Origin: Microbacterium gallinarum
GTDB lineage: Bacteria > Actinomycetota > Actinomycetes > Actinomycetales > Microbacteriaceae
Assembly (NCBI RefSeq): GCF_014837165.1
Contig: NZ_JACSPM010000001.1
Location: 525,618-589,617, forward strand
DNA: 64,000 nt
Reading direction: 5' to 3'
Shown here: one piece after another, positions 9,261 through 20,792 of the stretch
How positions within the stretch are numbered: position 1 is the first letter of the stretch
How the letters are laid out: the number at the start of each line of letters is the position of its first letter
Position numbers and translations under genes: made by a program
The notes under the pieces: model-generated
Seen by the model: the letters and a program-made list of their open reading frames with translations, nothing else
What the model was told of the DNA's origin: nothing
The model's database searches: none

Positions 9261-9279
9261 CCCGGGCATGATGGGTCGC

Positions 9280-10278
9280 GTGAGCCACGCCACCCCGCCG
9301 CTGCCCGAAGTCCTCGCCTCGGCCCGCGTGGTCGCGCTTCCGCTGGCCACGCGCTTCCGCGGCGTCGACGTGCGCGAAGCGCTCCTGTTCGAGGGGCCGC
9401 AGGGCTGGACCGAGTTCTCGCCTTTCGCCGAGTACGACGACCGCGAGGCGGCGACGTGGCTGGCCGCCGCGATCGATTTCGGATGGATGCCGCAGCCTGC
9501 GGCCGTCCGGAACGAGATCCCCGTCAATGCCACGGTGCCCGCGGTGGCCGCGGCATCCGTCCCCTCCGTCCTCGCCAGGTTCGACGGCTGTCGCACAGCC
9601 AAGGTCAAGGTCGCCGAGGCCGGGCAGCGGCTGTCGGACGATGTCGAGCGTGTGCGTGCGGTGCGCGAGGAGATGGGCCCGGAGGGGCGCGTGCGGATCG
9701 ACGCGAACGGCGCCTGGAACGTCGACGAAGCCGAGCGGGCGCTGCACGCCCTCGCCGAGTTCGACCTCGAATACGCCGAGCAGCCGTGTGCCACGGTCGA
9801 CGAGCTCGCCGAGCTGCGTCGCCGGGTGAAGTACATGGGCATTCCGATCGCCGCCGACGAGAGCGTGCGCAAGGCGACGGATCCGCTCGCCGTCGCCCGC
9901 GCCGGCGCCGCCGACCTGCTCGTGGTCAAGGCGCAGCCGCTCGGCGGCGTGCGGCGAGCGCTGGCGATCGTCGCGGAGGCCGGGCTTCCCGCCGTCGTCT
10001 CGAGCGCCCTCGACACCTCGATCGGACTCTCGATGGGCGCGGCCCTCGCCGCCGCTCTGCCGGTCCTCGAGTACGACTGCGGACTCGGCACGGCGTCGCT
10101 GTTCACCGCCGACGTGACCGAGCCCCCGCTCGCTCCGGTGGGTGGCGTGCTGCCGGTCGGTCGCGTGCAGCCCGACCCGTCGCTGACGGCTCGGCACGAG
10201 GCATCCGCCGACCGCCGCGACTGGTGGCTCGACCGACTCGCGCGCTGTCACGCGCTGCTCGTCGAGCGCGCTGGCTGA
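9280..10278 (+). CDS. menC: o-Succinylbenzoate synthase MenC
   Basis: Enolase-superfamily dehydratase making o-succinylbenzoate from SHCHC. Motifs visible in order: AKVKVAE (catalytic Lys pair), RIDANGAWNVDEA (metal Asp), LEYAEQPC (metal Glu), IAADESV (metal Asp) and LVVKAQPLGG (second catalytic Lys). I prefer the GTG at 9280 (protein of 332 residues) because CATGAT lies 7 nt upstream as a leaderless -10; an ATG at 9268 would add four residues. The gene is separated from menA/E/B by other genes but completes the pathway. Confidence 0.9.
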   Translation: MSHATPPLPEVLASARVVALPLATRFRGVDVREALLFEGPQGWTEFSPFAEYDDREAATWLAAAIDFGWMPQPAAVRNEIPVNATVPAVAAASVPSVLARFDGCRTAKVKVAEAGQRLSDDVERVRAVREEMGPEGRVRIDANGAWNVDEAERALHALAEFDLEYAEQPCATVDELAELRRRVKYMGIPIAADESVRKATDPLAVARAGAADLLVVKAQPLGGVRRALAIVAEAGLPAVVSSALDTSIGLSMGAALAAALPVLEYDCGLGTASLFTADVTEPPLAPVGGVLPVGRVQPDPSLTARHEASADRRDWWLDRLARCHALLVERAG

Positions 10279-10302: not shown

Positions 10303-10944
10303 TCAGCCTTCGGAGGGGGCGATCAGCAGCTGCGCGACCCGGGCGAGCTCTTCGTTCGTCGCCCGGCGCAGTTCGGCCTGATCGGCGCCGGCCATGACCG
10401 ACCGCACGGCAGCACCCTCCCAGACGGTGAGCAGCAGGCGCGCCGCATCGAGGGGCGGCAGGCGGAAGGTGAAGGACTCGGCGCGCCCGATGTCGTCGAT
10501 GATCTGCGCCACGCTGCGGAGCATCTCGTCGGTCTGCGCCAAGTACGCGGCGGCGAGCGCGGGTGTGCGGAGCGCGTGGATGCGGATCTCGCTCAGGAGC
10601 AGGACGCCCAGACGATCGTCGGCCGACATGTCGAGCACCTGCTGCACGATCTGCAGCGCGTTGGAGGGCACGTCGGCGAAGGCACCGGCACGCTCGAGTT
10701 CGGCGACGCGATCCCGCACCGCGGCGACGCGGCCGAGTGACACGCGTCCGGCCAGCTCGAGGAAGAGCTCGTCCTTCGTCTCGAAGTTCGAGTAGAAGGC
10801 GCCGCGGGTGAAGCCTGCTCGCTCGCAGACCGCTTCGACGGATGCCGCGTCCAGCCCGACTTCGGCGAAGACCTGGGCGGCGGCATCCAGCAGCTTCTGA
10901 CGCGTCGCCTCGCGGCGCGGCGACGTGACGCTCGTATCGCTCAA
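10303..10944 (-). CDS. TetR/AcrR-family regulator divergent from the MMPL exporter
   Basis: The 213-residue protein has a TetR N-terminal HTH (REATRQKLLDAAAQVFAEVG, then VEAVCERAGFTRGAFYSNFETKDELFLEL). I start it at a TTG because AAGGAGG is 5 nt upstream on the minus strand; a GTG at 10974 in frame lacks a ribosome-binding site. The C-terminal part is the usual ligand-binding helical domain. The divergent gene encodes an RND-type exporter and the intergenic region carries two adjacent palindromes, so it most likely represses its neighbour. Confidence 0.87.
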   Translation of the reverse strand: MSDTSVTSPRREATRQKLLDAAAQVFAEVGLDAASVEAVCERAGFTRGAFYSNFETKDELFLELAGRVSLGRVAAVRDRVAELERAGAFADVPSNALQIVQQVLDMSADDRLGVLLLSEIRIHALRTPALAAAYLAQTDEMLRSVAQIIDDIGRAESFTFRLPPLDAARLLLTVWEGAAVRSVMAGADQAELRRATNEELARVAQLLIAPSEG

Positions 10945-11005
10945 GAGATCCTCCTTCGCCAGTCTCACACGCACTACTCAGTTTCAGGACGGCAACCCGC
11001 CTTAC

Positions 11006-11074: not shown

Positions 11075-13987
11075 GTGTCCACCCTGTTGTATGCCCTCGG
11101 TCGCTGGTCCTACCGTCACCCGTGGCGGGTGCTGGTCGCATGGATCCTCCTCCTCGGCATCGCCGGTGGCGGGGCGCTCGCGTTCATGAAGGGCACCGAC
11201 AACTCCTTCTCGATCCCCGGCACCGAGGCGCAGGAGGGCATCCAGCTGCTCGATCGCAGCTTTCCGCAGGCGAGCGGCACGAGCGCCCAGCTGGTGATCG
11301 TCGCCGCCGACGGCGACACCGTCGCCCAGGCGCCCTACGCCGCTGAGATCGACGACACCGTCACAGCGCTGGAGGACATCGACGGCGTCATCGCGGTGAC
11401 CGATCCCTTCAACGAGATGGTCACCGGCATGGTCTCCGACGACGAGTCTGCCGCGATCATCCGCCTCCAGTTCGACGGACAGTCCACCGACGTCTCCGAC
11501 GAGACGAAGGACGCGCTCACGCTGGTCGCCGACGATCTTCGCGACACGCTGCCCGAAGGCTCGCAGGTGGCGATGGGCGGCGACTTGTTCTCGACGTCGG
11601 TCCCCGCACTCTCGCTCATCGAGGCCGTCGGCGTGCTCATCGCGCTGTTCGTGCTCATCGTCACCTTCCGCTCCTTCGCGGTGGCGTGGTTCCCGCTGAT
11701 CTCCGCGATCATCGGCGTCGGGCTCGCGATCGCGCTCATCTACCTCTCCACGGCGTTCGCCTCGATCTCGTCGACCACCCCCATGCTCGCGATCATGCTC
11801 GGGCTCGCCGTCGGCATCGACTACGCGCTGTTCATCGTCGCGCGACATCAGGATCAGGTGCGCACCGGCGTCGACCCCGAGGAGTCCGCTGCCCGCGCCA
11901 CCGGCACCGCGGGCTCCGCCGTCGTGTTCGCCGGCGCCACCGTGCTCATCGCCCTCATCGGCCTGGGCTTCGCCGGCATCCCCTTCCTCACCACGATGGG
12001 CATCGCCGCGGCGGTGGCTGTCGCCATCGCCGTGGTCGTCGCCCTGACGCTCACGCCCGCGCTCCTCGGCTTCGCCAAGGGTCGCGTCGCCGGCTGGGGC
12101 CACGGCAGGGCCCGTCGCGGCGTCGCGCTGCCCGTGCGGCGTCGCTCGTCAACCGCGGATGACGACGTGGCGCCGGCCGGGGCGGACGACGAGGCCGTCG
12201 TCGAGGAAGCCGATGCCGTTGCGCCCGTCGCCGCCGCGCCGAAGAAGACCAACCGCTGGGTGATGCTCGTGACGAAGCATCCCGTGATCACCACCGTCGC
12301 GGTGATCGTCACGCTGGGGGTGATGGCGATCCCCGCGGCCAGCCTCGCACTCGCACTCCCCAACGCGGGCCAGCAGCCCCAGACGAGCCAGGCGCGTCAG
12401 GCGTACGACCTCACCGCCGAGCACTTCGGCGCGGGATCGAACGGCCCGCTCATCATGACGGGCACCATCGTCACCTCGACCGATCCGCTCGGGCTGATGG
12501 CCGACCTCGCCGAGGAGATCGAGCAGGTGCCGGGCGTGAAGTCGATCGCCCTCTCGACCCCCAACGAGACGGCCGATACCGGGCTCATCCAGATCGTTCC
12601 CGAGACGGGTCCCGACGACCCGGCGACCGCCGACCTCGTGCGGGAGCTGCGCGCGCTCGCGCCGGAGCTGGAGGAGGAGTACGGCGTCGACCTGAAGGTC
12701 ACCGGCTTCACCGCCGTCGGCATCGACATCTCCGACCGTCTCGGTGCGGCCCTGCTGCCGTTCGGCATCTTCGTCGTCGGCCTGTCGCTGGTGCTCCTGA
12801 TGATCGTGTTCCGGTCGATCTGGGTGCCGGTCAAGGCCGCGCTCGGCTACCTGCTCTCGGTGCTCGCCGCCTTCGGCGTCGTCGCGGCCGTCTTCGAGTG
12901 GGGCTGGGGCGCCGAGCTGCTGCACGTGGACCGGACGGGGCCCGTGATCAGCTTCATGCCGATCATCCTCATGGGAGTGCTCTTCGGTCTCGCGATGGAC
13001 TACGAGGTGTTCCTCGTCAGCCGCATGCGCGAGGACTACGTGCACGCGCGCCGGGCCGCGTCGGGGCACGCCACGCGCAGCGATCGAGACATCGCGCTCG
13101 GCGCCGTGCGCTCGGGATTCTCGGCCTCGGCGCGCGTGGTGACGGCCGCGGCGGTCATCATGTTCGCCGTGTTCGCGGCCTTCGTGCCAGAGGGCGACGC
13201 GTCGATCAAGCCGATCGCCCTGGGTCTCGCCGTCGGCATCGCGGTCGACGCCTTCCTGGTGCGCATGACCCTGGTGCCGGCCGTCATGGCCCTGCTCGGC
13301 GCCAAGGCGTGGTGGATGCCGCGCTGGCTCGAGCGCGTCCTCCCCCACTTCGACATCGAGGGCGAGGCCGTCGAGCGCGAACTCTCGCTCGCGGAGTGGC
13401 CCGAGCCGCACACGACCGCCGCAGTCGTCGCGGAGGACCTCGCCGTGCGCGCCGAAGGCCCCGAGGAGTCCGTCGCGCTGTTCGACGGCGCGACGTTCCG
13501 GGTGGAGCCGGGCGGCACGCTCATCGCCACAGGGGATCCTCGCGCGGCGCGCGCGTTCGGGCTCGCGGTCGCCGGCCGCATCCCCCCGAGCGACGGGCGC
13601 CTTCGCGTCGCCGGCCACCTGCTGCCCGAGCGGGCGGCGTGGGTGCGCGCACACGTCGGCGTCGCGATCCTCGGCGGCTCCGACGACCCCGTGCGCGAGC
13701 TGCGCCGTGCGCTGAGCGGTCGCACCACCCTCGTGGTGGTCGACGGTCTGGACACGCTCGATCCCGCCGACCGCGACCAGGCCGCTGCGCTGCTGCGGGA
13801 TGCCGAGGCCGCCGCCCGAGCGCGATCGGGCGCGGCATCCGCTCCCCTCACCGTCATCGCGACCGCGAAGGCCGACGGCCCCGCGCTCGCCCTTCTGGCC
13901 GACGCGCGACGCTCCGACGTGAGCTCACTCGCCCTGCGCACCGGCACCGCCCCTGCTTCCCCTTCCATCGCCGAGGTGACCGCATGA
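11075..13987 (+). CDS. MMPL/RND exporter with a C-terminal ABC-ATPase-like domain lacking Walker A
   Basis: The 970-residue protein has two MMPL modules: the first with GTDNSFSIPGTEAQEGIQLL in its extracytoplasmic domain and the MLGLAVGIDYALFIVARHQD membrane signature (about residues 240-260), the second with MGVLFGLAMDYEVFLVSRMREDY (about 630-655). MMPL proteins export lipids or drugs using the proton gradient. After the last helix (~760) comes ~170 residues starting LFDGATFRVEPGGTLIA, then LRVAGHLLPERAAW, then RTTLVVVDGLDTLDPADRDQ, in the order of an ABC nucleotide-binding domain, but the Walker A position reads ATGDPRAARA with no GxxGxGKS. The gene overlaps the next by 4 nt. GGAGG precedes the GTG start. 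Confidence 0.88.
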   Translation: MSTLLYALGRWSYRHPWRVLVAWILLLGIAGGGALAFMKGTDNSFSIPGTEAQEGIQLLDRSFPQASGTSAQLVIVAADGDTVAQAPYAAEIDDTVTALEDIDGVIAVTDPFNEMVTGMVSDDESAAIIRLQFDGQSTDVSDETKDALTLVADDLRDTLPEGSQVAMGGDLFSTSVPALSLIEAVGVLIALFVLIVTFRSFAVAWFPLISAIIGVGLAIALIYLSTAFASISSTTPMLAIMLGLAVGIDYALFIVARHQDQVRTGVDPEESAARATGTAGSAVVFAGATVLIALIGLGFAGIPFLTTMGIAAAVAVAIAVVVALTLTPALLGFAKGRVAGWGHGRARRGVALPVRRRSSTADDDVAPAGADDEAVVEEADAVAPVAAAPKKTNRWVMLVTKHPVITTVAVIVTLGVMAIPAASLALALPNAGQQPQTSQARQAYDLTAEHFGAGSNGPLIMTGTIVTSTDPLGLMADLAEEIEQVPGVKSIALSTPNETADTGLIQIVPETGPDDPATADLVRELRALAPELEEEYGVDLKVTGFTAVGIDISDRLGAALLPFGIFVVGLSLVLLMIVFRSIWVPVKAALGYLLSVLAAFGVVAAVFEWGWGAELLHVDRTGPVISFMPIILMGVLFGLAMDYEVFLVSRMREDYVHARRAASGHATRSDRDIALGAVRSGFSASARVVTAAAVIMFAVFAAFVPEGDASIKPIALGLAVGIAVDAFLVRMTLVPAVMALLGAKAWWMPRWLERVLPHFDIEGEAVERELSLAEWPEPHTTAAVVAEDLAVRAEGPEESVALFDGATFRVEPGGTLIATGDPRAARAFGLAVAGRIPPSDGRLRVAGHLLPERAAWVRAHVGVAILGGSDDPVRELRRALSGRTTLVVVDGLDTLDPADRDQAAALLRDAEAAARARSGAASAPLTVIATAKADGPALALLADARRSDVSSLALRTGTAPASPSIAEVTA

Positions 13988-16005
13988 CCCTCCACATCGA
14001 ACGCGCGCGCTCGCGCCGGCCCGTGACGTGGCTGACGCTGATCGGCGTCCTGCTGCTGCCCGTCGTGATCGGCGGCGTGCTCGTCGCGGCGCTGTACAAC
14101 CCCGTCGAGCGGCTCGACGGTTTGCAGGCCGCCATCGTGAACGAGGACGAGCCCGTCACGATCGACGACCAGGTCGTCCCGCTCGGCCGTCAGCTGACCG
14201 CGGGGCTCGTCGAAGGCTCGGAGGACCAGCCGAGCAACCTGACGTGGACCATCTCGAACGCGGATGACGCCGCGGAAGGCCTCGCCGACGGCACGTACGC
14301 GGCCGTCGTGACCATCCCCGAGAACTTCTCGGCGGCGGCCACCTCGACACAGCCTGGCGAGACCCCGGCGCGCGCGACCATCGAGGTGCAGACGCCGCCC
14401 GACAGCCTGATCGTCGACGACGCCATCACGGCGCAGGTGACGACGGCCGCGGCATCCCTCATGGGAGAGCAGCTCTCGCAGGTCTACCTCGAGAACGTCT
14501 TCCTCGGCTTCACGACGCTCGGCGACCAGCTCGGCGAGGCGGCCTCGGGTGCCGCTCAGCTGGCCGATGGGGCATCGCAGGCGGCGGACGGCGCGACGCA
14601 GTTGGCCGACGGGATGCCGCAGCTGGCGTCCGGCGCCGACGGGATCGCCTCCGGAGCCGGAGACCTGCAGGGCGGACTCGGGCAGATCGCGGGCGGCATC
14701 GGGGGCGCCGCCGGCGGGGCGCGCGAGCTCGCCGCCGGGCTCGACACGGCCGCTGCGAAGGTCGTCAACCAGCAGCTGCAGGATGCCGCGGATGCGACGG
14801 CGAGCTACGCCGGCGCCGCCGCGGACGAGACCCTCGCCCTCGCCCTGCTGCTCGGCAACGACGACCCCGCCAACGGCCCGCTGGGCCTGGCGCAGAAACT
14901 CGGCGGCCTCGCCCAGCAGTGCATCGCGTCGGGCGGCTCGATCGACTTCTGCACGCAGCTCGGTGCCGCGGCGGCGACGGCCGGCACCGCAGCTCAGAAC
15001 GCCGGAGCGGCGGCGACGAGCGCCGGCTATGCCGACGGCTACGCCGCCGGGACCGCGTCGGGGATCTCGGAGCTCATGTCGCAGACGAGCGCGGGGCTCA
15101 CCGAGGCCGCGGGCGGTGCGCGCGCGCTCGGCTCGGGTCTCGACCAGCTCACCGGTGCGACCTCCCAGTCGGCCGACGGCGCGGGTCAGCTGTCGTCGGG
15201 CGCCGCTCAGCTCGCGGGCGGCATCGGCCAGGCCGGCGAGGGCGCGAGTTCGCTCGCCGACGGCGTGACGCAGCTCGCCGAAGGAACCACGACGCTCGCG
15301 GACGGATTGGACGAGGCATCCACCGCCCTTCCCTCGTACTCGGACGCGGAGGCGTCGAGCCTCGCGGAGGTCGTCGCGAACCCGGTCGAGGCCGACGGCG
15401 TCGGCAAGTCGCTGTTCGGCGCGTCGGCGATCCCGCTGCTGTCCACGCTCGCGCTGTGGTTCGGCGGACTCGCGACGTTCGTCGCGCTGCAGGCCGTGTC
15501 GCGGCGCGCGCTCACCGCACGCGAGCCGTCGGTGCTGCTGGCGCTGCGCGGATTCGCCCCGGCGGCGGCGCTCGGCGCGGCCCAGGGCGTCCTGGTCGCC
15601 GGCGTCGTGCAGCTCGCCGCCTCGTACGAGTGGAGCCAGTGGTGGGTGTTCGCCGGCGTGAGCGTCGTCGCGGGCGTCGCCTTCGCCGCTGTCAACCAGG
15701 CGCTCGTGGCTGTCTTCGGCGGCGCAGGCCGCTGGATCTCGGCGCTCATCGGCGTGCTCGCCGTCGCGACCGGCGTCGTCTCCACCGTGCCGGGCGTGCT
15801 GGCGGACCTCGCGGCGCTCATGCCGACCTCCCCCGCGTACCAGGGGATGGTCGCCGCGCTCACCGAGGCGGGCGGCATCGGAGCGGCGTTCGCCGGGCTG
15901 ATCGTCTGGGCGCTGCTCGCGTTCGGCGCGACGATCCTCGCCGTCGCCCGCCGCCGCACGACGTCTGCTCGCGCGCTCCTCGACGCCGTCCCCGTCACGG
16001 CGTAG
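13984..16005 (+). CDS. YhgE/Pip-domain membrane protein (ABC-2-like)
   Basis: A 673-residue protein with an N-terminal membrane helix (about residues 12-32), a long periplasmic stretch rich in Gly/Ala/Asp repeats of the LADGASQLADG type, and five to six C-terminal helices (from about 480). This layout is typical of the YhgE/Pip family, thought to be exporter or phage-receptor proteins. The ATG overlaps the MMPL stop codon (ATGA), so the two are translationally coupled and probably act together in export controlled by the TetR gene. Confidence 0.85.
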   Translation: MTLHIERARSRRPVTWLTLIGVLLLPVVIGGVLVAALYNPVERLDGLQAAIVNEDEPVTIDDQVVPLGRQLTAGLVEGSEDQPSNLTWTISNADDAAEGLADGTYAAVVTIPENFSAAATSTQPGETPARATIEVQTPPDSLIVDDAITAQVTTAAASLMGEQLSQVYLENVFLGFTTLGDQLGEAASGAAQLADGASQAADGATQLADGMPQLASGADGIASGAGDLQGGLGQIAGGIGGAAGGARELAAGLDTAAAKVVNQQLQDAADATASYAGAAADETLALALLLGNDDPANGPLGLAQKLGGLAQQCIASGGSIDFCTQLGAAAATAGTAAQNAGAAATSAGYADGYAAGTASGISELMSQTSAGLTEAAGGARALGSGLDQLTGATSQSADGAGQLSSGAAQLAGGIGQAGEGASSLADGVTQLAEGTTTLADGLDEASTALPSYSDAEASSLAEVVANPVEADGVGKSLFGASAIPLLSTLALWFGGLATFVALQAVSRRALTAREPSVLLALRGFAPAAALGAAQGVLVAGVVQLAASYEWSQWWVFAGVSVVAGVAFAAVNQALVAVFGGAGRWISALIGVLAVATGVVSTVPGVLADLAALMPTSPAYQGMVAALTEAGGIGAAFAGLIVWALLAFGATILAVARRRTTSARALLDAVPVTA

Positions 16006-16038
16006 CGCGACGCATACCGGCCCGGCCACGCGGTCTGC

Positions 16039-16474: not shown

Positions 16475-17536
16475 TCAGCTCAGGCCGGAGTAGGCGTGCA
16501 GGCCCTTGAAGAACATGTTCACGATCGTGAAGTTGAAGAGCACCGCGGTGAAGCCGATGATCGACAGCCACGCCGACCGGGCGCCGCGCCAGCCGCGCGT
16601 CGCGCGGGCGTGGATGTATCCCGCGTACAGCACCCAGATCACGAAGGTCCAGACTTCCTTGGTGTCGAAGCCCCAGTAGCGGCCCCACGCGTCGTTGGCC
16701 CAGATCGAGCCGGCGATGAGCGTGAACGTCCAGAAGATGAACCCGAGGATCGCGAAGCGGTACGCGAGCGACTCCAGCGCGTCCGAGCCCGGGAGGGTGG
16801 CGAGGAACCGCGGACCCGTCTTGACGGGCTGAGCGGGTGCCTCGGCCGACGCCGCGACGAGTGCCCGGCGCTCGCGCCGGGCCTGCATGAGCTGCATCAC
16901 CGACAGGCCGAAGGCGAGGGCGAACAGCGCGGTCGACAGCGTCGCCACGAACACATGGATGACCAGCCACACCGACTTGAGCGGGTCGGCGAGCGGCGTG
17001 ATCTCGACGTAGAAGGCCAGCGTCGAGCCCCCCAGCAGCACGACGGTGAGACCCGTGATGAACGAGCCGAGGAACCGCAGGTCGTAGCGGATCAGCACCG
17101 CGAGGTAGACCGCGACGATGAGCATGGTGCCGGTGAGGGCGAATTCGTACATGTTCGACCACGGCACGCGTCCTGCGGCGATGCCGCGCGTGACGTCGCC
17201 CGCGACGTGGAACAGGAAGCCGAGCACCGTCAGCGACGTGCCGATGCGGGCCCACACGAACCGCTTCCGGCGGCCGAGCGGGGCGTTGAGGTTCTCCTCC
17301 GCCGCCTTCTCCTGCGCGCGCAGCTCGCCCACCGAGCCACCCGTCGCGACGCCGCCCGCCGCGACCAGCTCGCGTTCGCGCACCTCCAGCTGGGCGTCCT
17401 TGGCGTCGACCGCGTCGGCTCCGCGGCGCGCGAGGTCGACGGCGTACGCGATGAAGGCGAGCGCGTAGATCGTGATCGCGGTCCACACCAGCAGCACCGA
17501 CACGGAGTCGAGCGTGAGAGCGGAGGATTCAGGCAT
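16475..17536 (-). CDS. ccsB: Cytochrome c biogenesis protein CcsB
   Basis: Membrane component of system-II cytochrome c maturation (also called ResC), which presents heme to the ligase complex with ResB. The 353-residue protein has about eight membrane helices, the tryptophan-rich segment AGSIWANDAWGRYWGFDTKEVWTFVIW that forms the WWD domain (about residues 270-296), and heme-ligand His positions in TRGIAAGRVPWSN and VWLVIHVFVATLS. It is the last gene of the minus-strand operon. The TAGACT hexamer lies 6 nt before its ATG, so it may also have its own leaderless promoter. Confidence 0.93.
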   Translation of the reverse strand: MPESSALTLDSVSVLLVWTAITIYALAFIAYAVDLARRGADAVDAKDAQLEVRERELVAAGGVATGGSVGELRAQEKAAEENLNAPLGRRKRFVWARIGTSLTVLGFLFHVAGDVTRGIAAGRVPWSNMYEFALTGTMLIVAVYLAVLIRYDLRFLGSFITGLTVVLLGGSTLAFYVEITPLADPLKSVWLVIHVFVATLSTALFALAFGLSVMQLMQARRERRALVAASAEAPAQPVKTGPRFLATLPGSDALESLAYRFAILGFIFWTFTLIAGSIWANDAWGRYWGFDTKEVWTFVIWVLYAGYIHARATRGWRGARSAWLSIIGFTAVLFNFTIVNMFFKGLHAYSGLS

Positions 17537-17540
17537 TGTC

Positions 17541-19244
17541 TCAGTCTACTTTCGGGTACGCCGGGGACTGCAGGCCGTCGAGGTGGCGCTGGGCGAACTG
17601 CGCCACCGCGGCATCGAGCGTCGGGTCCTCGCCGCGGGCGAGTCCCGCGTACTCGAGGTGGAGCGACTCGCCTCGCGGGGTCGCCTTCACCCACATGCGG
17701 CGGCGCGGCACGAAGAGCGCGGCGAGCAGGCCTGCGGTCGCGAGCACCGCGAACACCAGCACCCATGTGGCCGCGGCATCCCGGTGGATCGACAGCGACA
17801 CGTATCGCTTCACCGACTCCTCGTAGCCCTGCGCGCCCTCGGGCGCCTCGTTCTCGAACGTGATGCTGCCGAGCCCGTCGGGGAGGTCGGCGGTCTCTCC
17901 GGGCGCGAGCTCGATCGGCTCGACATCGGTGCCGCGCCCTGCGAGCTGCGTCATCTCGGACGGGTCGAGCGTGTACACGGATCGGGGCGTGCCGTCGTCG
18001 ATGCCGAGATCGCCGACCCACACGTTGAGCGACACGACCGGGTTGACCAGTGCGGGGTAGGCCGATGCGAACGCACCGGTGTGCAGCGGCGCCTGGGTGG
18101 GGTAGAAGAAGCCCTGCAGCGCCATCTGGTCCGGCAGGCCGTCGGTGATCTTCACGACGCCGAGGGAAGTCATGTTGGTGTCCTGCGGGAGGAAGGGCAC
18201 CGACTCCGAGAAGACGATCTCACCGTCCGCGTCGCGCACGGTGAGCGTCGGCGCATAGCCGTTGCCCATCAGGTAGATGCGGTCGCCGCCCATGTCGAGC
18301 GGGTGGTTGACCCGCACCTCGCCCGCGACCGGCTCCTCGCCCGCGTACTGCGTGGTGAGGTTCGCGACGAAGTCTCCGGCCTGGCCCTGGCCCTGCGCGC
18401 CGAGCGGCTGGTACGTGACGTCGAAGCGGTCGAGCGTCAGCGCGTACGGCTCGAGGGCCTCCTCGTCCACGAACCGCCCCGGGTTGAACGACGTGTAGTC
18501 GAGCATCGTGTTCACGAAGGTGCGTCCCTCGAGGATCACGGTCTGGCCGGTGTAGGTGAAGCCGCCGCCGAATCCGACCGCGAGCAGCACGCCGACCAGC
18601 GACGCGTGGAAGACGAGGTTCCCGGTCTCGCGCAGGTAGCCGCGCTCGGCCGACACCGACAGCATCGCCCCCGAGTCGTAGCGCTCGACGCGGTAGCCGG
18701 ACTTCTTCAGCTGCTGCTGCGCGGCCTCGATGGCCGAGGTCGCGGCGGCCGCGGCATCCGCTCCGGAATCGAACTCGATCGTCTCGGAGCGATGCGCGTC
18801 CAGACGCGAGAGACGGGCGGGCGTGCGCGGCGGCGTGGCGCGGAGGGCCTTCCAGTGGTGCTTCGTGCGCGGGATGACGCAGCCGATCAGCGAGATGAAC
18901 AGCAGGATGTAGATCGCGGAGAACCACGGCGACGAGTACACGTCGAACATGCTCAGGTTGTCGAGCACCGGCGCGAGGTCGGGGTTGTCGGCGAAGTACT
19001 GCGTGACGCCGTTCGGGTCGGCGCTGCGCTGCGGCACGAGCGAGCCGGGCACCGCGGCGATCGCGAGCAGGAGCAGCAGCACGAGCGCGGTGCGCATCGA
19101 CGTGAGCTGGCGCCATCCCCAGCGCAGCCAGCCGACGACGCCGAGTACGGGCTGGGTGATGTCGGATGCCTCGGCCTCGGCGTGGTCCGACGGCCGCAGC
19201 GGGTCGGCCGTCGCCGTGCCGGACTCAGAGCGGGAGCGGGACAT
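17541..19244 (-). CDS. resB: Cytochrome c biogenesis protein ResB
   Basis: Partner of CcsB in heme delivery to apocytochrome c. The 567-residue sequence has three helices near the N-terminus (LRWGWRQLTSMRTALVLLLLL first), a large extracytoplasmic domain (about residues 225-490) and one C-terminal helix (TWVLVFAVLATAGLLAALFV). NLVFHASLVGVLLAVGFGGG carries the His typical of the family. It overlaps the 3' end of ccdA by 20 nt and is 4 nt upstream of ccsB, so the operon is compact. Confidence 0.93.
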   Translation of the reverse strand: MSRSRSESGTATADPLRPSDHAEAEASDITQPVLGVVGWLRWGWRQLTSMRTALVLLLLLAIAAVPGSLVPQRSADPNGVTQYFADNPDLAPVLDNLSMFDVYSSPWFSAIYILLFISLIGCVIPRTKHHWKALRATPPRTPARLSRLDAHRSETIEFDSGADAAAAATSAIEAAQQQLKKSGYRVERYDSGAMLSVSAERGYLRETGNLVFHASLVGVLLAVGFGGGFTYTGQTVILEGRTFVNTMLDYTSFNPGRFVDEEALEPYALTLDRFDVTYQPLGAQGQGQAGDFVANLTTQYAGEEPVAGEVRVNHPLDMGGDRIYLMGNGYAPTLTVRDADGEIVFSESVPFLPQDTNMTSLGVVKITDGLPDQMALQGFFYPTQAPLHTGAFASAYPALVNPVVSLNVWVGDLGIDDGTPRSVYTLDPSEMTQLAGRGTDVEPIELAPGETADLPDGLGSITFENEAPEGAQGYEESVKRYVSLSIHRDAAATWVLVFAVLATAGLLAALFVPRRRMWVKATPRGESLHLEYAGLARGEDPTLDAAVAQFAQRHLDGLQSPAYPKVD

Positions 19245-20160
19245 TCGCGAACACCCCCTGCAGGCTCGCCATGAGCTGGGTCCACACGCCGGTCACCATC
19301 AGTACGCCGAGCACGATCAGCAGGGCTCCTCCGACCAGGTTGACGACGCGGATGTGCCGGCGCACGAACGTCACCGAGCGCGTCGCCCACCCGAAGCCGA
19401 GGGTGAGGAGGATGAACGGGATGCCGAGGCCCAGCGAGTAGGCCAGGCCCAGGGTCGCCGCGCGCGCGGCCGAGCCGGAGTCGAACGCCATCGCGAGGAT
19501 CACGGCGAGGGTGGGCCCGATGCACGGCGCCCAGCCGATGCCGAGCGCGATGCCGAGCAGCGGAGCGCCGATGAGCCCGAGGCTGCCGCGCACCTGCGGG
19601 CGCGCGATGCGCTGCGCAAGGCCGAAGACGCCGATGAACACGAGGCCCATCGCGATGACCACGACCCCGAGGACGCGGGTGATGAGGTCGGCGTACTCGA
19701 TGAAGAACCGGCCCAGCGTGCCGCCGAGCGTCGCAACGCTCACGAACACGAGCGTGAAGCCCGCGATGAACAGCAGCACCCCGAGCAGCAGCTTGCCGCG
19801 GGTGGGGGCCTCCGGCTCGGGGGCATCCGTCGTGCCGGCCGCCGCAGCCCCAGCCGAAGCCGCCGTCGCCGTCGCCGCCGTCAAACGGTCGGGAAATTCC
19901 GGCGTTTCTGCGCCGGAATCGCCCGAAAGAGCCGGATTCGCCCGACCGTTCGACGCCGACCGCGCGGAAGCCCGCACCGATGCCCGCGCCGAAGCCGGCA
20001 CCGAAGCCGGCCGAGCGCTGACCGCGCCGCCGATGAACCCGAGGTAGCCGGGGACGAGCGGCAGCACGCACGGCGAGAGGAACGAGAGCAGCCCGGCGAG
20101 GATCGCGATCGGCACGGCGACGAACAGCGACCCGCCGGCGACCAGATCGGCCGGGGTCAC
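19225..20160 (-). CDS. ccdA: Thiol-disulfide transporter CcdA with an in-frame insert
   Basis: The CcdA/DsbD-type membrane protein passes electrons from cytoplasmic thioredoxin to extracytoplasmic thiols, keeping apocytochrome c cysteines reduced. The 311-residue protein has six helices; LLSFLSPCVLPLVPGYLGFIGG (near residue 31) and IGWAPCIGPTLAVILAM carry the paired catalytic Cys. Residues ~49-120 between the first and second helices form an Ala/Ser/Arg-rich loop far longer than usual; its nucleotide sequence contains a composite palindrome (19884-19950). The GTG start overlaps the tlpA stop by 4 nt. Confidence 0.88.
   Translation of the reverse strand: MTPADLVAGGSLFVAVPIAILAGLLSFLSPCVLPLVPGYLGFIGGAVSARPASVPASARASVRASARSASNGRANPALSGDSGAETPEFPDRLTAATATAASAGAAAAGTTDAPEPEAPTRGKLLLGVLLFIAGFTLVFVSVATLGGTLGRFFIEYADLITRVLGVVVIAMGLVFIGVFGLAQRIARPQVRGSLGLIGAPLLGIALGIGWAPCIGPTLAVILAMAFDSGSAARAATLGLAYSLGLGIPFILLTLGFGWATRSVTFVRRHIRVVNLVGGALLIVLGVLMVTGVWTQLMASLQGVFANVPLPL
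19884..19950. repeat. 67-bp composite palindrome inside ccdA
   Basis: Outer arms AACGGTCGGG and CCCGACCGTT and inner arms ATTCCGGCG and CGCCGGAAT around TTTCTG are perfect. The element lies within the atypical loop and preserves the reading frame, coding about 22 residues. It looks like a palindrome inserted in a coding sequence. Confidence 0.85.
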
Positions 20161-20792
20161 GACTCCTCCAGCGCGTCGCGCACGAGCGTCTGCAGGATCG
20201 AGGCGCTCTCGAGCTGCCCGATGATGCGCGCGGCGACACGGCCCTGCTTGTCGAGCACGAGCGTGGTGGGCGTGGCGTTGATCGGCGTCTTGTCGGCGAA
20301 CGCGAGCTTGATCGCGCCGTCCTGCGCGGCCATGAGGCTCGGGTAGGTGACGCCGTACTGCTCGGCGAACGCGGTCGCGGTCTCGGGGGCGTCGCTCGTG
20401 TTGATGCCGATGAACGAGACGTCCTCGCCCTCGAACGACGCGTTCGCGGCCTCGAGCGCCTCCGCCTCGGCCCGGCACGGACCGCACGCGGCGTACCAGA
20501 AGTTGACCACCACCACATCGCCGGCCACGTCATCGCTGCCGAGCTTCTCGCCCGTCTCCGTCGTGCCGTCGAACACGACGGGCTCGGTGCGCTCGCCCTC
20601 GGGGATCTCGACGATCTGGAACCCGTTGGCCGCGATGAACCCCTTGTTGTCGCCGGCGCGGTACTGCTCCGCGAGCGGATCGTTCGCGCAGGCGGCGAGC
20701 CCCCCGATCAGTCCGAAGACGAGCAGAGCGGATGCCGCGCCCCTCGCCCGCCGGATGCCCGAGCGCTCCCGCGCCGATGCCTGTGACCCCAT
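20157..20792 (-). CDS. TlpA-family thioredoxin-like lipoprotein
   Basis: The 211-residue protein has a lipoprotein signal (LLVFGLIGGLAACANDPL, lipobox Cys about residue 35) and a thioredoxin fold whose active site WYAACGPCRAEAEA carries CGPC, the usual CXXC motif. It is expected to reduce apocytochrome c Cys with electrons from CcdA. The ATG overlaps the upstream phosphatase stop by one base (TGATG) and its stop overlaps ccdA, giving a continuous five-gene operon. Confidence 0.88.
   Translation of the reverse strand: MGSQASARERSGIRRARGAASALLVFGLIGGLAACANDPLAEQYRAGDNKGFIAANGFQIVEIPEGERTEPVVFDGTTETGEKLGSDDVAGDVVVVNFWYAACGPCRAEAEALEAANASFEGEDVSFIGINTSDAPETATAFAEQYGVTYPSLMAAQDGAIKLAFADKTPINATPTTLVLDKQGRVAARIIGQLESASILQTLVRDALEES

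Follow-up and report, generated by a model that had tools for sequence, protein, structure and literature searches.

Organization of the MMPL-YhgE locus

The window (the whole 64,000-nucleotide stretch of Microbacterium gallinarum DNA that was analysed, from a genome of 3.35 Mb) contains a plus-strand open reading frame at 11075-13987, which begins with GTG and encodes a 970-residue protein made up of an MMPL pump and a folded C-terminal domain. The features of the locus are the following.

10303..10974, minus strand: divergent TetR-type regulator (open reading frame)
11075..13393, plus strand: MMPL (RND superfamily) transporter region, residues 1-773 (PF03176, 6.5e-80; Asp-Tyr pairs)
13394..13954, plus strand: predicted degenerate ABC nucleotide-binding domain (pseudo-NBD), residues ~774-960 (AlphaFold2 model; Foldseek and VIA-align)
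13520..13579, plus strand: Walker A position LIATGDPRAARAFGLAVAGR, residue 816, without GxxxxGK[ST] and with the family hallmark GR kept
13601..13642, plus strand: LRVAGHLLPERAAW, residue 843, the best-conserved stretch of the pseudo-NBD (28-relative alignment)
13721..13777, plus strand: Walker B-like strand and D-loop-like region RTTLVVVDGLDTLDPADRD, residue 883, with the Asp kept and the catalytic Glu replaced by Gly
13850..13879, plus strand: H-loop position TVIATAKADG, residue 926, without His
13984..13987, plus strand: ATGA overlap of the MMPL-NBD stop and the YhgE start (sequence)
13984..16005, plus strand: YhgE/Pip protein of 673 residues, with a predicted type V ABC permease fold and a long coiled-coil stalk (TIGR03061; AlphaFold2; VIA-align)

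The MMPL part matches PF03176 with 269 bits against a Pfam cut-off of 20.5. It has Asp-Tyr pairs in TM4 (GIDYALF, residue 247) and TM10 (AMDYEVF, residue 640), which we take, from the background on MmpL3, to be the proton relay; across the fused MMPLs, the pair is kept in 151/151 in TM10 and in 142/151 in TM4. The tail domain is about 187 residues long, and the final ~10 residues of the protein are disordered. Two very long minus-strand open reading frames (12149-13654 and 13036-16029) overlie the operon and were set aside, as they are probably shadow ORFs of GC-rich coding DNA. A TetR-like ORF is found near 105 of 110 fused genes and likewise near 16 of 19 unfused MMPLs, and the divergent TetR-type gene in the window is a probable regulator of the MMPL-YhgE operon. 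By eye, the gene upstream at 9268-10278 (plus strand) resembles a menaquinone-pathway enolase-type enzyme, and the downstream region at 16475-20487 (minus strand) resembles cytochrome c biogenesis genes (ccsB, resB and ccdA-like).

Predicted ABC fold and missing catalytic parts of the tail domain

A Pfam search with the window protein as a single sequence gave no ABC match above the cut-off. When 28 relatives were combined into a profile, it matched ABC domains of PDB entries, the best being CFTR NBD1 (1.2e-6, query residues ~9-91), and NCBIfam ABC ATPase models are matched by 21 of the 28 alignment members, all weakly. AlphaFold2 run on the 28-relative alignment models the domain with a pLDDT of 91.3 and a pTM of 0.87. 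The top Foldseek rows for this model are all ABC ATPases (best 1.7e-9), and VIA-align retrieves ABC NBDs with Z scores of 14-16, ~158 residues being aligned at an rmsd of ~2.5 Å for most rows. By model and structure comparison, the domain has the ABC ATPase core fold, and the MMPL tail is thus predicted to be an ABC nucleotide-binding domain. Pfam, AlphaFold2 and the PDB structure comparison together bear out the original prediction of an MMPL exporter with a fused ABC-ATPase-like domain lacking Walker A, and the outcome that it had named as contrary, a fold unrelated to ABC ATPases, did not occur. AAA_16, the sole Pfam match of the tail (0.008-0.017, below the cut-off), was rejected as its identity, because the structure comparison and the profile searches give ABC NBDs.

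The four motifs that had been pointed out in the tail are all present in the protein, at residues 816, 843, 883 and 926. The Walker A position reads ATGDPRAARA, with no GxxxxGK[ST]. Walker B is VVVDG, in which the Asp is present and Gly occupies the place of the Glu; no Glu occurs among the commonest letters of this column in the fused forms. The H-loop position reads ATAKADG, and the column of the switch His contains no His among the fused forms. The helical subdomain with the LSGGQ signature is missing from the window domain, so that the RTTLVVVDGLDTLDPADRD strand is reached directly. The span from the AGR motif to Walker B is ~55 residues in the window type versus more than 100 in stand-alone relatives, and in the AlphaFold2 model strand 89-92 is followed by one short helix and then by strand 113-117. 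LSGGQ strings occur in four fused proteins; in the one inspected by eye (L015), the string sits after Walker B and does not represent a signature. With Walker A, the signature, the catalytic Glu and the switch His all missing, ATP hydrolysis by the fused pseudo-NBD is very unlikely, judged from its sequence. We assign the tail to the ABC NBD fold and not to the ABC ATPases, because the catalytic features that we looked for were not found.

Conservation of the domain

The homologous MMPL in other Microbacterium genomes also has the tail domain, which occurs in many further families of the order as well. The domain is therefore present in close homologues and far beyond the Microbacteriaceae, and its absence from close homologues, the second outcome named as contrary to the original prediction, did not occur. 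Across 28 sequences, W2, P3, G40, R62, G68, P78, V84, R85 and D120 (domain numbering) are invariant. When the window gene is compared pair by pair with relatives from Microbacterium, dN/dS is 0.10-0.44 for the domain and 0.10-0.27 for the MMPL part. The value for the domain is the higher one in every pair, indicating a weaker constraint on the domain, and the closest pair is near equal (0.101 versus 0.099). These sequence comparisons indicate that the pseudo-NBD is under purifying selection. A random extension is ruled out by the conservation of the domain in 151 distinct proteins and by dN/dS values below 0.45.

Pairing with YhgE

Loci were gathered along three routes, starting from the domain, from MMPL and, as an independent route, from YhgE. 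YhgE lies directly downstream of 171/171 domain-bearing MMPLs versus 0/20 MMPLs without the domain at loci with sufficient flank. The loci are partly redundant and go back to 151 distinct fused proteins and 217 distinct N-termini of YhgE. YhgE-adjacent sequences formed part of the training set of the final domain profile; the unbiased first-pass profile of 28 relatives had already given the same picture. The control MMPLs without the domain end 6-33 residues past the MMPL match. Conversely, 248 of the 250 YhgE genes examined in the class have an NBD directly upstream, which is fused to MMPL in 173 cases and stands alone in 75. Of the two exceptions with no detected upstream NBD, L028 is a masked locus. 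The other, L242, is the sole unmasked YhgE locus with no detectable upstream NBD, and an MMPL ends ~4 kb upstream of it. The view that YhgE is a permease without an ATPase therefore did not hold: in actinomycetes, nearly every YhgE comes with an ABC-like partner of its own, most often a degenerate one.

In the window, the MMPL-NBD stop and the YhgE start are joined by the ATGA at 13984-13987, confirming the 4-nt overlap noted originally. The last base and the stop codon form ATGA in 127 of the 151 distinct fused genes, a frequency that is consistent with translational coupling. Two loci (L221 and L228) have two adjoining NBD-YhgE pairs in tandem. The MMPL-YhgE operon of the Microbacterium type is also present in records titled Stenotrophomonas maltophilia P13 (L110) and Planococcus sp. 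APC 4015 (L106), and these assemblies are probably contaminated or mislabelled.

The YhgE protein of the window matches the N-terminal family model TIGR03061 at 2.1e-34, with 118.5 bits against a cut-off of 96.15; the C-terminal model TIGR03062 gives 1.7e-15 and 57.2 bits, below its cut-off of 102.2. Pfam ABC2_membrane_3 is matched at 4.2e-10. The AlphaFold2 model (pLDDT 79, pTM 0.56) has a helix at the N-terminus and a domain of extracellular type, together with long coiled-coil helices (about 143-448) and a membrane bundle at the C-terminus. With residues 472-662, VIA-align retrieves ABCG, ABCA, Pdr5 and NosY chains at Z scores of ~12-16, which gives this part the ABCG/ABC-2 fold. Foldseek returned no row with E below 0.001, the best being a domain of a putative ABC type-2 transporter, and the PDB profile matches of YhgE were discarded as coiled-coil noise. 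Because the plain Foldseek E-values are weak, our assignment of the permease fold rests on VIA-align and Pfam, which agree with the original prediction that YhgE resembles an ABC-2 permease. The membrane part of YhgE is thus predicted to fold like type V (ABC-2/ABCG-like) permeases.

Origin of the tail domain from a YhgE ATPase

The tail domain has its closest relatives in stand-alone ABC-like proteins whose genes lie immediately upstream of YhgE. Among 63 distinct stand-alone partners, GxxxxGK[ST] is present in 10, GxxxxGR[ST] in 34 and a long helical region in 61, and the corresponding counts among the 151 distinct fused forms are 3, 5 (GR[ST]) and 6. Walker A is kept in 31 of 32 ordinary ABC ATPases of the same order, which served as controls. 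The hallmark GR after the P-loop helix occurs in 46 of the 62 YhgE-linked domains with GxxxxG[KR][ST] versus 1 of 31 ordinary ABC ATPases. In quick tree searches without bootstrap, the YhgE-linked NBDs, both fused and stand-alone, split from ordinary ABC ATPases (SH-aLRT 99), and all fused forms except L232 and L233 form one group (95), including a contig-end fragment (L149) and with L098 at the unresolved base. The MMPL tree, obtained in the same quick manner, splits all fused MMPLs, L232 and L233 included, from unfused paralogues (SH-aLRT 99) and groups the GK-keeping L098, L232 and L233 together (85). The NBD tree and the GR hallmark rule out a randomly captured ordinary ABC ATPase as the source of the domain.

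The fused proteins that keep GxxxxGK[ST] are L232, L233 and L058 (the same gene as L098), and L232 exceeds the Pfam ABC_tran cut-off (60.5 bits versus 25). In L232 and L233 (G354 and G438, family f45), the NBD fused to MMPL has an intact GPSGSGKT as well as the helical region, and from these motifs the fusion is possibly ATP-active. The existence of fused and stand-alone forms with an intact Walker A or helical region indicates a stepwise loss. Homology, gene context and the trees show, at the level of sequence, that the tail is the former or cognate ATPase (NBD) subunit of YhgE, which was fused to MMPL and catalytically dismantled in most lineages. The simplest reading of the sequences is that a YhgE ATPase still bearing its P-loop was fused to MMPL once and that the P-loop and the helical subdomain were lost afterwards; several independent fusions are possible instead. 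In the large-genome families f37, f22 and f35 (L181-L210, L211-L250), the stand-alone YhgE partners mostly have GxxxxGR[ST] or no P-loop, indicating that the decay of YhgE-linked NBDs is class-wide and independent of MMPL fusion.

Discussion

The window YhgE belongs by TIGR03061 to the YhgE/Pip family (TIGR03061/TIGR03062; Pip of L. lactis and PIPEF of E. faecalis; related to EsaA/YueB), with which it shares LxxG heptad repeats. For PIPEF, a YhgE/PIP domain with no known function and an MFS-like domain at the C-terminus are described, and the excerpted account of it mentions neither an ABC-like nor an MMPL partner (PMC4999554), in contrast to the window YhgE. Type V transporters (ABCG1/2, ABCA1, NosDFY, TarGH and Wzm-Wzt) have the permease fold predicted for the YhgE membrane domain and the ABC NBD fold predicted for the fused tail, whereas the NBD of the window has lost its catalytic parts, has no helical subdomain and is joined to a proton pump. 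The degenerate NBDs of asymmetric ABC exporters resemble the window domain in that one NBD has lost catalytic residues. They differ in retaining both P-loop and helical subdomain and in pairing with an active NBD within one ABC protein. MmpS5-MmpL5 is an RND pump with a coiled-coil tube, in which the coiled coil is part of MmpL5 itself and MmpL5 works with MmpS5 and AcpM (excerpts of PMC12501195). Both systems combine an MMPL pump with an accessory protein and an extended coiled coil, but the same excerpts mention no ABC-like domain. In the window system, the coiled coil sits in YhgE. Neither an MMPL-NBD fusion nor YhgE-linked pseudo-NBDs turned up in the searched titles and abstracts of the open-licence PMC literature. 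The component families are known; what appears to be new is their combination, together with the graded loss.

We propose, with a probability of roughly 0.65, that the pseudo-NBD is a docking module joining MMPL and YhgE in one complex. The original suggestion of a bridge between the two systems thus gains strong, though indirect, support from the kinship of the domain with the stand-alone partners of YhgE, from the invariable presence of YhgE next to the fusion and from the type V permease fold predicted for YhgE. The pseudo-NBD would retain the surface of an NBD and seat on the membrane domain of YhgE, and MMPL and YhgE would thereby form one complex. MMPL would supply proton-motive energy to this complex, and the permease or conduit would be YhgE, whose long extracellular coiled-coil stalk may span part of the cell wall. 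MmpS5L5 offers a functional analogy. The fusion suggests that two kinds of transporter are wired into one machine with no need for ATP at the fused site. The weaker constraint on the domain than on the MMPL part speaks against the docking reading. Moreover, many stand-alone YhgE-linked NBDs are degenerate and have no MMPL within the ~13 kb examined, so YhgE may need neither ATP nor MMPL. We consider only tentatively the broader idea of a hybrid class, in which an RND/MMPL pump would have taken over a type V permease whose own ATPase, once fused to the pump, became a non-catalytic coupling, with proton-motive force in place of ATP.

Alternatively, the pseudo-NBD might be a regulatory sensor that binds a nucleotide or another ligand without hydrolysis and gates MMPL or YhgE. 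In its favour, the model shows an intact ABC core, an Asp on the Walker B side never varies, AGR hardly varies, and GxxxxGR[ST] is found in 34 of the 63 stand-alone partners. However, the whole P-loop sequence, beyond the Lys, has gone in almost all fused forms (GxxxxGK[ST] is absent from 148/151), and therefore no recognisable phosphate-binding site is left; we regard such a sensor as rather unlikely. The losses of the catalytic motifs and of the helical subdomain, the higher dN/dS than in MMPL and the very frequent ATGA overlap would also suit a slowly decaying relic that has no structural role and matters only for the co-translation or expression of YhgE. Purifying selection and invariant residues such as G40, R62, G68, P78, R85 and D120 argue against it, as do the confidently predicted core and the retention of the domain in every YhgE-linked MMPL across many families, and a relic is thus improbable. 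An asymmetric NBD dimer, in which the pseudo-NBD and a competent ABC ATPase encoded elsewhere power YhgE with ATP, is more doubtful still: ABC exporters with one degenerate site are known (PMC7756269), but the helical subdomain and the signature needed by the opposite site are absent, and the interval between MMPL and YhgE, where we looked, contains no competent NBD gene.

The MMPL-NBD proteins link two transporter superfamilies in one polypeptide, and the path from ATPase to pseudo-ATPase is visible in a series of intermediates. The poorly understood YhgE/Pip proteins of actinomycetes gain a defined partner and a place among the type V ABC permeases. It becomes a testable question whether an ABC permease can be re-powered by proton flux after its ATPase has been turned into a coupling.
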